DNA from: Burkholderiaceae bacterium
GTDB taxonomy: Bacteria > Pseudomonadota > Gammaproteobacteria > Burkholderiales > Burkholderiaceae_B
Assembly: GCA_030158305.1 (NCBI GenBank)
Contig: JAOATE010000089.1
Coordinates: 1-64,000, forward strand
Reading direction: 5' to 3'
Length of the DNA stretch: 64,000 nucleotides
A program made the translations under genes and the position numbers. This document shows positions 96-9,702 of this stretch, piece after piece. Below the pieces are notes generated by a model. The model was not told the DNA's origin. It did no database searches and was given only the letters and a program-made list of their open reading frames with translations. Position 1 is the first letter of the stretch. Each line of letters begins with the position of its first letter.

Positions 96-659
96 AGTGA
101 TTCCACCGCCAATGTATGGGTTGTTGACTTCATCCGGCAATGAGCGGTACTTGGTAACCTGAGCACCATCATTGCCGAGGTATACATACATGATTTCAGC
201 ATCACCGCTGTCGCGCATATAACGGTAACCCCAGACCCACTGGTGATCATCACCCCAGTCATCACGCGTGATATTGGCGGGCGGACCAAACTCACAATGG
301 ACACGCTCGCGTGTCCAGACCTCGCCATTGCTCAAAATACTAAAGCTCTTTTCAGTCAGTACCTGCTGGGGTGCACCCACTAGACCTTGTTTGGAAACGT
401 GCAGCGCATAAGCGGTCTCACCATCTGGTTGCTGGGTCCACACCATGCGTTTCCCTCCGTCTCTGGAGGGGCAATTGATATCAGGATTGCCGTATTGTTT
501 AATCACCTGAGTGACGGGCGTGCCAGGTTGAACGCTGGAAACGTTGGCGCAACCCGCCAGCATCAACGCAGCAAGACCGAGTGAGATTCCAGCGAGTGCT
601 TTGGCCTTTGCGGGCAATGTGCTGACACGCAGTGCTTCTTTTTTAATCACGACAACCAT
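81..659 (-). CDS. Putative lipoprotein with a BamE/SmpA-like segment
   Basis: Predicted 192-residue lipoprotein. The first 35 or so residues form a signal peptide with basic residues, a hydrophobic stretch and an LAGC lipobox, so the mature protein would be lipid-anchored through that Cys. After it comes a PGTPVTQVIKQYGNP segment that resembles the BamE/SmpA-type helix (a G-T/M-x-x-x-V-x-x-x-x-G-x-P pattern). The rest is Trp- and Tyr-rich and not recognised. An in-frame extension to 779 exists but would lie inside ribA, so I chose the ATG at 659; a GTG at 650 is also possible. It follows ribA on the same strand with 10 bases between, so it may share its transcript. Function unknown. Confidence 0.75.
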   Translation of the reverse strand: MVVVIKKEALRVSTLPAKAKALAGISLGLAALMLAGCANVSSVQPGTPVTQVIKQYGNPDINCPSRDGGKRMVWTQQPDGETAYALHVSKQGLVGAPQQVLTEKSFSILSNGEVWTRERVHCEFGPPANITRDDWGDDHQWVWGYRYMRDSGDAEIMYVYLGNDGAQVTKYRSLPDEVNNPYIGGGITLYSW

Positions 660-669
660 CCTAAAAAAA

Positions 670-1749
670 TCAAAACTCGAACATATGACCGCTCTTTGCG
701 GCCTTTGTACGAAGGTATCCGTCATTGTGTTGATTCGACGGGTAAATATGTGGGACACGCTCAACCACCTCGATGTCATGCTGCGCGAGCGCTGCGACCT
801 TGATCGGATTGTTGGTCATGAGCTTGACGCGACTCACCCCCAACAGACGCAGCATTTGCGCGGCAGGCAAGTAGTTGCGCTCGTCCGAATCAAATCCGAG
901 ATGCAAGTTGGCATCAACCGTATCAAAACCATTGTCTTGTAATTGATAAGCACGCAGTTTGTTGACCAGTCCGATTCCACGCCCTTCTTGGGCGAGATAC
1001 AGCAAGATGCCGCTGCCGACCTTGGACATTTCAGCAATCGCGCCACGCAACTGATTACCACAATCACAGCGCAACGAGCCAATCAGATCACCGGTAAAAC
1101 ATTCAGAGTGCAGGCGCACCAACACTGGTGCCGTGGGATCAACATCACCCACCATCACAGCCAAATGTTCGATACCACCGTCGCGTGGACGAAACGCCAC
1201 CACGCGCGCATTCTCAGCATTTTCCAGCGGCACGCGCGCTTGACTGACTAGTGTCAGTGCTTTGGCCGCGTTTTGCATGTAATGCTGAATATGTATCGCC
1301 TCGACAGAAGAGATATCATCAGAACCAGCGCCTTCGACGATCAATGCCGCAGGCAGCAGGCGTGACAACTTAGACAGCGTCACGCAGGCCTGCGCTAACG
1401 CATCGGCATCGTTTAACACCAGTCCGGTCAACGGAGGACGTTGCATGAGAGCCGCAAGCGGATTGGCTAAAAATTCAATTGTCGCCAAATCCAACCCTTG
1501 CGGATGCGTCACCACGCAAGCCGCACGATCTGTCTTGTCGATGCCGAGCACATTGGCTCGGGTACCTGTCATGACGAGTCGAGGTGCACTTGTCCCTGAG
1601 CGGATGAGCAAACCAAGGTGCTCAGGGGTGAGTGCCTCAGCCGCCAGCATCAATAGGCTGGTGTCGCCGTCGTGCACGCGCACGAGTGCTCCGCGGCGCA
1701 ACTCTGAAATGGCACGGTCTACTGCGATGAGAGGATCTGGAGTCGACAA
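670..1749 (-). CDS. ribA: GTP cyclohydrolase II with a degenerate N-terminal domain
   Basis: Predicted to convert GTP to 2,5-diamino-6-ribosylamino-4(3H)-pyrimidinone 5'-phosphate, formate and pyrophosphate, the first step of riboflavin synthesis. The C-terminal half (about residues 150-359) has the family motifs: LVRLHSEC, then SLRCDCG (three Zn-binding Cys spaced C-x10-C-x-C), YLAQEGRGIGL, RAYQLQDNGFDTVDAN and MTNNPIKV. The first 150 residues occupy the place of the RibB dihydroxybutanone-phosphate synthase domain in RibBA fusions, but I do not see the RibB acidic and His active-site motifs, so that half is probably not catalytic. It sits next to a RibD-type reductase, a PTPS-fold protein, glycosyltransferases and an exporter instead of ribH/ribE. 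This suggests a specialised copy supplying a pyrimidine precursor, although a housekeeping role cannot be excluded. Confidence 0.9.
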   Translation of the reverse strand: MSTPDPLIAVDRAISELRRGALVRVHDGDTSLLMLAAEALTPEHLGLLIRSGTSAPRLVMTGTRANVLGIDKTDRAACVVTHPQGLDLATIEFLANPLAALMQRPPLTGLVLNDADALAQACVTLSKLSRLLPAALIVEGAGSDDISSVEAIHIQHYMQNAAKALTLVSQARVPLENAENARVVAFRPRDGGIEHLAVMVGDVDPTAPVLVRLHSECFTGDLIGSLRCDCGNQLRGAIAEMSKVGSGILLYLAQEGRGIGLVNKLRAYQLQDNGFDTVDANLHLGFDSDERNYLPAAQMLRLLGVSRVKLMTNNPIKVAALAQHDIEVVERVPHIYPSNQHNDGYLRTKAAKSGHMFEF

Positions 1750-7054: not shown

Positions 7055-7060
7055 GCAAAT

Positions 7061-8854
7061 ATGAAATTATTCCGCCTCTATTTGCGCGTGCTTGAAAAAC
7101 TGGGTTCGGATCGGCGACTCGGTTGGCTCTTGGCCTTGGCCAACGTCGCACTTGCCATGGCGTTATTCGCGGAGCCTGTTCTCTTTGGTCGTGTGATCGA
7201 TACGCTTTCAACTATCCCGAGCAATCAGCCAGCTGCAATATGGGAAGGCGTCTGGCCTTTGCTCTTGCTCTGGACTGGCTTTGGATTGTTCACGATTATC
7301 TGCTCAACCTTGGTCGCACTTTTTTCGGATCGACTCGCGCATCGCCGTCGACACGCCGTATTTGGTGAGTATTTTGAACATGTGCTGCATCTGCCGCTCG
7401 CGCAACAGTCTCGCACCCACTCCGGCCGTTTGATGAAAATCATGCTGCAAGGAACCGATACCCTCTGGTGGCTATGGTTAAGCTTTTTCCGTGAACACCT
7501 CGCGGCATTTGTTTCTTTGGTCGTACTGGTGCCGCTGGCACTCTACATTAACTGGCGACTCGCAATCGTGTTGATTGTCTTATGCCTCTTGTTTGGTGTG
7601 CTGACAAATTACATTTTGCGCAAAACACAAAAACTTCAGATGCAAGTTGAAAGCCATCACTCTGATCTTGCTGAACTCGCCTCGGATACGCTTGGCAACA
7701 TCGCTTTAGTGCAGAGTTTTTCACGCATACAGACTGAAGTGAGCGCGTTACGCAACATCAGTCAACGCGTACTGGGCGCTCAACTGCCTGTGCTGTCGTG
7801 GTGGGCGATCGTCACGGTACTCACGCGCTCCGCCACCACGCTGAGCATTTTATGTATCGTGATTTTAGGTGCTTGGCTCTATACCAAATCTCTCATCTCG
7901 ATCGGCGAAATTGTGACGTTTATTGCCTTTGCAGGCATGGTGATTGGGCGACTCGAACAAATCGTCGCCTTTTTCAACAAGCTCGCCATGGATGCCCCGC
8001 GCCTGAGAGAGTTTTTTGGTGTGCTCGATACGGCTCCAGAGATTCAGGATGCGCCTGATGCGATCGATCCCGGTCGTTGCGAAGGCATCATCGAATTTCA
8101 CAACGTGAGTTTTTCTTACGATGGCCAACGTCCTGCCGTTCAGAACCTCAGTTTCAAAGTCGCGCCGGGTCAAACAATCGCCTTAGTGGGTACCTCCGGC
8201 GCAGGAAAATCCACAGCCCTCAGCTTGCTGTATCGCGCGTTTGATCCTCAGTCTGGCGCCATCACCATTGACGGTCGCGATATCCGCGAATTTCAGTTGA
8301 CCGCCCTGCGCCGCAATATCGGCGTAGTATTTCAAGAACCACTTTTATTTAATCGTTCGATCGCTGAAAACTTACGCATCGGCTCACCGGAAGCCAGTGA
8401 GTCCGATCTGCGCGAAGCCAGTGCGCGCGCTCAGGCACTAGACTTTATTTCCCGACAACCCCAAGGGTTTGACACAATCATTGGTGAACGTGGCCGCAGT
8501 CTCTCAGGCGGTGAACGTCAACGCTTATCGATTGCGCGGGTTCTCTTGAAAAATCCGCCGATCTTGATCTTGGACGAAGCGACCAGCGCGCTGGACAGCT
8601 CAACGGAAACGAGTCTACTCAAAGCAATGGAAGAAGTGACGCGTCAACGCAGCACGCTTGTGATCGCTCACCGACTCAGCACCATCAGACAAGCCGATAT
8701 GATTTTGGTGATGGATGCCGGCCAAGTGATCGAAGTCGGCACGTTCGACATGCTCTATGCACAAGGCGGACGTTTTACGGAAATCGTCAAGCAACAGTTC
8801 AACGCACCAATTGAACACCCCTCACACCCAAATATACAGATGGAACTGCGATGA
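7061..8854 (+). CDS. ndvA: NdvA/ChvA-like ABC glucan exporter (fused permease-ATPase)
   Basis: Half-size ABC exporter of 597 residues. Six membrane helices (about residues 20-310) are followed by an ATPase with Walker A GTSGAGKS, signature LSGGERQR and Walker [13 protein letters not shown]. The membrane half resembles NdvA/ChvA, which exports cyclic beta-1,2-glucan in rhizobia and agrobacteria: [15 protein letters not shown], an [11 protein letters not shown] segment, [15 protein letters not shown] and [18 protein letters not shown] stretches match the family layout. A homodimer in the inner membrane is expected. Cyclic-glucan producers pair NdvA with the very large NdvB synthase, which is not seen; here the partner is OpgH. 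The gene starts 6 bases after opgH, and its last four bases (ATGA) overlap the methyltransferase start, so the three are translated together. Confidence 0.8.
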
Positions 8855-9702
8855 CTGGATTTTCTGCACAATGGCTGGCTCTTCGCGAACCCGCGGATCA
8901 CCGTGCGCGCGACATCGCGCTGCAGTCAATCGTCATACACGACCTTGAACGTCTCGCGCGCATGCGTGCAGGGCCGCTCAAGCTTGTCGATCTTGGTTCT
9001 GGTTCCGGTTCAAACTTGCGGGCATTAGCGCCCCTGTTGCCAGAGAACCAACACTGGACCTTGGTCGATTACGATCCCGCATTATTAGAGGCTGCACGCG
9101 CAGCATGCATACTGTGGGCCGACCAAGTGGTCTCCAACGATGACTCACTCAAACTCATCAAAAACAACAAGCACATCACGATTCATTTTCGTTGTGAAGA
9201 CCTCTCAAGCAACATCGAAGCCGTCCTAGCTGAGCCTGCGGATCTCATCACGGCTGCCGCATTTTTTGACCTAGTTGCCGAACAGTGGCTTGAACGCTTT
9301 TGTGGTTTACTCTCCACGCCTCTTTACACAGTCTTGACCTATAACGGCATTGAGCACTGGACACCAGCTGAACCAAGCGATGCAGCGATACTAAAAGCCT
9401 TTCATGCGCATCAACAAACAGATAAAGGTTTTGGCGCAGCGGCAGGACCGACTGCTGCAGGCGTCATGGAAAAGCTGTTGCGCATGCGTGGCTTTGCCGT
9501 GTCCAATGCCTCAAGCCCGTGGCTACTGGACTCAAAGGATCGCTCTTTGATCGAGCAACTTGCCACAGGTAGCGCAGGTGCTGTGCGAGACACCGGATTG
9601 GTCTCGCGAGAAAACGTAGAGGCTTGGCAACGGAGTCGCTGTCAGGCGACCACGTGCGAGATCGGACATACCGATTTGTATGCACGACCCCGTCAGTTTT
9701 AA
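8851..9702 (+). CDS. Class I SAM-dependent methyltransferase
   Basis: Cytoplasmic 283-residue protein with a Rossmann methyltransferase fold. Motif I is [14 protein letters not shown] near residue 46, followed by the acidic residue of motif II in [13 protein letters not shown]. Before it lies [18 protein letters not shown], a conserved-looking N-terminal segment. The target is unknown. It overlaps the exporter stop codon by ATGA, so it belongs to the opgH-ndvA operon and probably methylates the same product or its precursor. Its 3' end overlaps the convergent kup gene by four bases. Confidence 0.85.

Follow-up and report, generated by a model that had tools for sequence, protein, structure and literature searches.

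The 64,000-nucleotide stretch of DNA analysed here (the window; contig JAOATE010000089.1 of a freshwater Burkholderiaceae bacterium, assembly GCA_030158305.1) carries at 670-9702 eight genes, among them ribA, a stand-alone RibD_C reductase gene and the gene of a PTPS-IV protein (Table 1). We found that these eight genes are one conserved unit, far beyond chance, which recurs across the phylum and in Actinomycetota, and we consider it on balance probable that the locus encodes a widespread uncharacterised pathway, built on PTPS-IV, whose product is glycosylated and methylated, resembles a pterin and is handled at the membrane. The source genome has 2.62 Mb in 97 contigs and is 99.28% complete, and Zwartia vadi is the named relative nearest to it when PTPS proteins are compared (93% identity; very near genomes may be left out).

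Of 397 genomes sampled evenly over the phylum, 32 have PTPS-IV, source genome included (about 8%). In the 31 other PTPS-IV neighbourhoods of this even sample, counting a gene if it lay within 8 kb of PTPS-IV, we found MDR in 31/31, GT4 in 30/31, RibD_C in 27/31 and RibA in 13/31, and the methyltransferase in 29/31 stretches when fusions were counted (GT4-fused in 6). Of the two methyltransferase-free stretches (L177 and L178), L177 was inspected and has another kind of methyltransferase near GT4. The strict order MDR-PTPS-GT4, scored by script, was kept in 26/31, and two of the five failures (L182, L184) were found by eye to reflect over-long open reading frame bounds, the frames having been delimited stop to stop. 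When contigs of named genomes were scanned with the PTPS alignment, at least 597 stretches were listed, at least 576 of them relatives; the best 80 of these relatives are the loci closest to the query, their proportions lean to the OpgH version, many of them are truncated by contig ends, and they hold GT4 in 78, MDR in 74, methyltransferase in 70, OpgH in 68, RibD_C in 49, RibA in 34 and NdvA in 18. The cluster-gene profiles were built from the families at these 80 loci and at plasmid loci (5 sequences for the phosphatidyltransferase, 3 for the flippase-like protein). The initial annotation had tentatively mentioned similar neighbourhoods in alphaproteobacteria; these are real, their actual range is wider, and the co-occurrence of PTPS-fold, MDR, GT4, methyltransferase and RibD_C genes that it proposed to look for extends across the phylum.

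Among 250 genomes of the same order, MDR orthologues were found in one genus (six genomes, 48-53% identity) and in one further genome (36%), clearly set off from paralogues; MDR, PTPS and GT4 stand together in all six genus genomes, RibD_C in five and OpgH in one (short stretches). Xanthobacter autotrophicus (L100) has the arrangement OpgH-MDR-PTPS-GT4-methyltransferase. Moreover, the cluster is plasmid-borne in Streptomyces fungicidicus, Microbacterium, Candidatus Thiodictyon, Rhizobium, Methylosinus, Agrobacterium and others, and in Methylosinus trichosporium OB3b it is located on pOB3b1. Of 12 plasmid stretches taken from 20 plasmid matches, 9 hold at least MDR, PTPS-IV and the methyltransferase, one (L127) holds MDR, PTPS-IV and GT4, and two (L121, L125) hold PTPS-IV only; the orphan genes of these two neighbour cupin and sigma-factor genes.

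The stand-alone reductase follows PTPS-IV closely. Comparing the 31 holders of PTPS-IV with 49 non-holders (20 of 69 randomly chosen non-holders were left out), an orthologue of the window RibD_C scoring above 150 bits was present in 28/31 holders vs 0/49 non-holders (next best match 108 bits; Fisher P 1.5e-18, phylogeny ignored). Holder G265 has it some 62 kb away from PTPS-IV, and in genus g222 its presence splits holders from non-holders likewise. A deaminase half was found in 0/89 cluster RibD_C proteins, with a working positive control, so the absence of the deaminase that the initial annotation noted holds throughout, and the reduction that it assigned to this domain fits the sequence data. 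The nearest solved structures are the reductases 2azn, which we take to be archaeal, and 6p8c, both ahead of bacterial RibD; in the archaeal-type start of riboflavin and F420 synthesis reduction precedes deamination, and the two matches are no more than suggestive of a reductase of this type. If an undeaminated pyrimidine were reduced, a 2-amino-4-oxo ring would be left, which the PTPS fold can hold.

The PTPS-IV protein itself has the FGPAQ signature at residues 21-25, and in 43 sequences F21, G22, A24 and Q25 are invariant and P23 is kept in at least 90%. Aligned to QueD and PTPS, the catalytic Cys (CxxxHGH) and the Asp-His dyad are replaced (A24 and Y68 invariant, N67 in at least 90%); two zinc His are present (H14, H28) and the third is A30, invariant in the 43, as is E120, the pterin-anchoring Glu. 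Taking these positions to be the catalytic, zinc-binding and pterin-anchoring ones, as we presume, the pattern fits a pterin-binding but non-catalytic fold. The solved homologue of the window protein is SCO6650 of Streptomyces coelicolor, which reportedly has no zinc and no PTPS activity and keeps its pterin-binding residues. SCO6650 is represented by a structure only (PDB 3d7j, molecule name 'Uncharacterized protein'). In Jezberella montanilacus and a Burkholderiaceae metagenome-assembled genome we also observed a triple PTPS protein, with three tandem PTPS matches in one frame of 379-392 codons (Table 1).

In alphaproteobacterial loci the methyltransferase directly follows GT4, whereas in the window 5 kb separate the two and they are on opposite strands. 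GT4 and methyltransferase are read as one continuous frame of 656-662 codons in 7/129 stretches, of which six come from genomes of families f60 and f62, which belong to the window's class, and one from a Hyphomicrobiaceae metagenome-assembled genome; one and the same fused protein of 645 amino acids matches the window GT4 (39% over 340 columns) and the window methyltransferase (31% over 296 columns, E 3e-30). The fusion ties the opgH-ndvA-methyltransferase unit to the left-hand unit and suggests that GT4 and the methyltransferase act on one substrate. The glycosylation and methylation put forward initially fit the sequence data, fusion included, for a product that is itself putative.

The membrane step exists in two versions. 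Among 123 loci (6 of 129 stretches have no MDR and were left out), 84 have OpgH within 3 kb of MDR and 20 have a CDP-alcohol phosphatidyltransferase there, 19 (some cut short) have neither of the two and none has both; anywhere in the stretch the two occur together in 4/129. In the even sample, within 8 kb of PTPS-IV, the phosphatidyltransferase was found in 15/31, OpgH in 11/31, both in 2 and neither in 7. Rhizobiaceae contain both versions (L122 vs L118 and L124), and a PF03706 flippase-like gene accompanies the phosphatidyltransferase in 18/21 stretches. We read OpgH and the CDP-alcohol phosphatidyltransferase as two ways to finish the same molecule at the membrane. The genome has one OpgH copy that we found and gave no match to OpgG (PF04349; the E. 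coli control was positive), which argues against ordinary glucan synthesis. The NdvA-type exporter belongs chiefly to the betaproteobacterial version: it occurs in 18 of the best 80 loci, and 16 of these 18 are betaproteobacterial records. A candidate gene for the export in the initial annotation is present in the window, and the export is putative. Accessory genes among the 129 stretches were cytochrome b561 (41), an FkbM methyltransferase (35) and creatininase (17).

Within the locus, all eight open reading frames are intact and each fits its named family in the list of frames and the family profiles (Pfam support for MDR and methyltransferase is weak, and MDR is under the curated cut-off). 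The gene content given in the initial annotation is borne out, these two families weakly; its boundary at 659 moves to 670, where ribA ends. The same-strand gaps are 9 bp (MDR/PTPS), 2 bp (PTPS/GT4) and 6 bp (opgH/ndvA), with a 4-bp overlap of ndvA and the methyltransferase gene; the divergent gaps are 106 bp (ribA/RibD_C) and 92 bp (MDR/opgH), and RibD_C and GT4 are convergent with a 22-bp overlap. The units are as tight as had been claimed, with one four-base overlap inside a unit (ndvA/methyltransferase), a second one being that of the methyltransferase gene with an unrelated potassium transporter gene after it. Within the 64-kb window there is no ribB, ribH or ribE, as stated before, and no full ribD. 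Rfam riboswitches (e.g. FMN) gave no match at the gathering score in the window, promoter-like sites were below shuffled controls, and terminator-like sites were within one standard deviation of shuffles.

Table 1. Genes of the cluster in the window and the triple-PTPS frames of two related genomes.
Feature	Coordinates	Strand	Evidence
ribA, GTP cyclohydrolase II with degenerate DHBP-synthase-like N-terminal half	670..1749	-	PF00925 4e-60
RibD_C, stand-alone pyrimidine reductase, no deaminase half	1856..2710	+	PF01872 6e-38
GT4 glycosyltransferase	2689..3759	-	PF00534 1e-27
PTPS-IV (FGPAQ) T-fold protein	3762..4163	-	catalytic and one zinc-binding position substituted, Glu120 retained
MDR dehydrogenase, divergent subfamily, weakly BchC-like	4173..5174	-	PF00107 8e-6 and BchC 33 bits, both below cut-off
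OpgH/MdoH-type membrane glucosyltransferase	5267..7054	+	NF003958 525 bits, above cut-off
NdvA/ChvA-type ABC exporter	7061..8854	+	NF010178 860 bits and TIGR01192 588 bits, above cut-off
Class I S-adenosylmethionine (SAM) methyltransferase, cluster-specific family	8851..9702	+	weak Pfam; 31% to fused domain, E 3e-30
Triple-PTPS frame	G624:C9:53894-54934		
Triple-PTPS frame	G627:C37:10327-11358		

The window RibA retains the three metal-binding Cys, the Tyr and the Arg of GTP cyclohydrolase II, residues whose roles we presume, and it matches the E. coli enzyme (2bz0) with E 6e-57; the DHBP synthase motif D-E-D-R-E-N-x-G-D is absent from it. Among 53 aligned cluster RibA proteins, the three Cys and the Tyr are present in 52 (the remaining one is truncated there), and the Arg of QEGR is Cys in two. 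The two loci L095 and L189 have QEGC for QEGR, and both genomes also have a creatininase gene. The other PF00925 protein of the genome (contig C43, L002:1474-2748) has the DHBP synthase motif, combines RibB with a degenerate domain without any metal Cys, presumably the RibBX type, and adjoins a ribH-like frame. As a working GTP cyclohydrolase II it was rejected, its metal ligands being lost. Cluster ribA is thus the sole GTP cyclohydrolase II found in this genome whose metal ligands are intact, and because of this it probably also feeds riboflavin. The ribB-ribH and ribD-ribE genes were recognised by eye elsewhere in the genome (L002, L004); the second complete riboflavin operon that the initial annotation envisaged was not found, and the first step lies inside the window. 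That annotation had linked a coincidental cluster to ribA being the only GTP cyclohydrolase II, which is nearly the case (sole intact copy), and to a lack of co-occurrence of the other genes, which clearly do co-occur.

This raises the alternative that ribA is a housekeeping riboflavin gene parked by an unrelated sugar cluster, its proximity being uninformative on the product. The sole intact-Cys copy speaks for it, a situation also found in 7/8 related betaproteobacterial genomes tested (Zwartia vadi is one holder of this kind), as do Polynucleobacter rarus, which has the cluster without ribA and an ordinary RibA of 201 amino acids 147 kb away, and the 13/31 sampled loci with ribA nearby. On the other side, in families f85 and f95 a RibA copy above 150 bits, the criterion of an intact copy in the phylum comparison (residues were read in separately aligned copies only), is present in 8/8 holders vs 0/4 non-holders, a comparison chosen after the table was seen; GTP cyclohydrolase II there appears tied to the cluster rather than to riboflavin. 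Moreover, among sampled holders from other orders of the same class 6/13 have a second RibA copy above 150 bits besides the ordinary one, five of the six within 6 kb of PTPS-IV and the sixth at a contig start, and RibD_C, redundant for riboflavin here, follows the cluster. We therefore consider a parked housekeeping gene unlikely. A module for flavin secretion that raises riboflavin precursor supply appears more strained and quite improbable: RibA and RibD_C are riboflavin enzymes, and a Sinorhizobium RibBA branch is linked to secreted flavins in the available text of PMC9478397, yet the unit has no ribB, ribH, ribE or deaminase, and PTPS-IV, GT4 and the methyltransferase have no known role in flavin synthesis.

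It is likewise doubtful that the cluster makes an osmoregulated periplasmic glucan via OpgH and NdvA, with the pterin-like genes supplying a mere substituent. Both proteins are glucan enzymes by family, and OpgH is close to MDR in 84/123 loci; but OpgG was not found in the genome, NdvA is confined to 18 of the best 80 loci, and glucan is not the common core because OpgH is replaced by the phosphatidyltransferase in 20 loci and neither enzyme is present within 3 kb in 19 (some cut short). Another proposal, in which the PTPS gene stands for the missing QueD and acts in queuosine synthesis, draws on the presence of QueC with no other PTPS gene found in the genome, on the 12/31 phylum holders in which PTPS-IV is the sole PTPS match, and on families f85, f95 and f98, where 7/11 holders have no other PTPS match and all five non-holders tested have another PTPS. 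Against it stand the replaced catalytic Cys, Asp-His dyad and zinc His, the lack of que genes in the unit, and eight related betaproteobacterial genomes, each with a separate, higher-scoring PTPS gene beside PTPS-IV. Since those eight relatives hold both genes, replacement of QueD by PTPS-IV was set aside; given the 12/31 it is kept as a weak and very improbable rival. The QueC gene (C3:50888-51535, L224) stands in this genome without a QueD-type PTPS found, one being present in the eight relatives, which may reflect either a gap in the assembly or a non-standard route to preQ0. A chance neighbourhood is refuted by the sampled neighbourhoods, conserved across Proteobacteria and Actinomycetota, and has a practically negligible probability.

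Several points nevertheless weigh against the PTPS-IV pathway as we read it. In the f85 and f95 comparison two of the eight holders (G411, G554) have the RibA copy on another contig or 15 kb off, and families f98 (0/3 vs 0/1) and f102 (1/1 vs 1/1) do not discriminate. With ribA within 8 kb in only 13/31 sampled loci and two tested Roseibium holders without an intact GTP cyclohydrolase II, the source of the pyrimidine varies. The RibD_C orthologue is missing in 3/31 holders, one of them with PTPS-IV near a contig end, and two Streptomyces plasmids have PTPS-IV without the other profiled cluster genes. The pairwise distances of all seven proteins are correlated (r 0.53-0.78; 0/200 permutations reach any value), although these correlations are uncorrected for species phylogeny and common ancestry alone would explain much of them. 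A role shared with QueD stays compatible with the gene content of the 12/31 holders, and the cluster has no known product, reaction or phenotype. We also considered that creatininase-bearing clusters might rely on a GTP cyclohydrolase II that carries the SCO6655 Tyr-to-Met change and presumably stops at a formylated intermediate; this was rejected, Tyr being present in 15/15.

PTPS-IV beside GTP cyclohydrolase and RibD_C is already in print. The AGeNNT paper (PMC5445326), in its available passages, places PTPS-IV in COG0720 with the same FGPAQ signature and the neighbours PF00925 (there called GTP cyclohydrolase I/FolE2) and PF01872, both present in our window; unlike here, those passages give a neighbourhood network with no pathway proposed, and MDR, GT4, methyltransferase, OpgH and phosphatidyltransferase are unmentioned in them. 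PTPS-IV was assigned to archaeal F420 from unpublished work in the text seen of PMC5041015. A description of the whole cluster or pathway was not found in the open-licence literature searched. In toxoflavin and pseudoiodinine synthesis, according to the excerpted text of PMC9911603, GTP cyclohydrolase II and a RibD homologue likewise feed a secondary metabolite, with methyltransferases; the RibD homologue is likened there to a deaminase, whereas the window RibD_C has none, and the psd genes listed in that excerpt include no PTPS, MDR, GT4 or membrane glycosyl- or phosphatidyltransferase. Gene kinds of a toxoflavin-type cluster are present in the window, with a RibD homologue that has no deaminase and with other genes that differ. 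Bacterial pterin glycosides resemble our proposal in the sugar on the pterin, the Chlorobium enzyme falling in a GT-1-/AviGT-4-like group (PMC5683033, in the part available); unlike here, its substrate is tetrahydrobiopterin. OpgGH/NdvAB glucan synthesis shares homologues of OpgH and NdvA with the window but differs by OpgG, not found in the genome, and by the phosphatidyltransferase that replaces OpgH in 20/123 loci. Tetrahydrobiopterin is made by way of GTP cyclohydrolase I and a catalytically active PTPS, not by way of GTP cyclohydrolase II. The creatininase found in 17/129 cluster stretches belongs to the family of BrbF, a formamidase used for riboflavin in the passages available from PMC9478397.

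Some neighbouring genes were also observed. On the minus strand of the window at 81-779, there is a lipoprotein-like frame of 232 amino acids without Pfam match, whose place next to ribA is conserved in close relatives only (3 of the best 80 loci). A distant version of the cluster in another genome of the order (L193, G140:C28) comprises RibD_C, MDR, a PTPS only 21% identical, a methyltransferase and a CDP-alcohol phosphatidyltransferase. In Roseibium (L055, L066, L073 and others) the downstream stretch at about 12.4-18.4 kb holds an acyl carrier protein, an acyl-CoA-dehydrogenase-like frame, a class II aminoacyl-tRNA-synthetase-like protein (PF00587), DUF1839 and a glycosidase-like frame. A secreted-looking protein of about 343 amino acids without Pfam match (L101:6056-7084 and relatives) is encoded no more than 0.8 kb from OpgH at 10 of the best 80 loci, and the same type adjoins the cluster in three genomes of another genus (L190-L192).

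From the gene content, co-inheritance, fusion, residue loss and retention, and OpgH/phosphatidyltransferase alternation observed, a scheme may be drawn in which the order of steps, the final structure and the role of the product are speculative. By family knowledge, RibA would open GTP to 2,5-diamino-6-ribosylaminopyrimidinone phosphate, and the stand-alone RibD_C would reduce the sugar without prior deamination, like the archaeal reductase, the 2-amino-4-oxo ring being retained. PTPS-IV may then bind the ring via its conserved Glu and, with MDR, might remodel or oxidise the side chain, perhaps closing a second ring, which is speculative chemistry. GT4 would add a sugar and the methyltransferase would methylate the same molecule, as their families suggest, and the membrane enzyme (OpgH in this lineage, the CDP-alcohol phosphatidyltransferase in others) would cap it. 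The NdvA-type ABC transporter would export the product in this lineage, and the flippase-like protein may substitute elsewhere.

Further, we suggest, tentatively and as something rather less than probable, that the product is a pterin-like molecule with a redox or signal role, either tethered to the membrane or exported, whose 2-amino-4-oxo ring comes from GTP cyclohydrolase II and which is glycosylated and methylated; it would be either joined to a phospholipid by the phosphatidyltransferase and flipped to the outside, or glucosylated by OpgH and pumped out by NdvA, with a cytochrome b561 family member exchanging electrons with it. If this were true, the product would be a pterin linked to lipid and exported by a route of its own. 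If the pathway is as proposed, PTPS-IV would gain a function, the point at which a riboflavin precursor is diverted would be located, and in this bacterium one enzyme would feed both riboflavin and a second product, a genetically testable branch point. The marker gene PTPS-IV is present in about 8% of the phylum genomes sampled.

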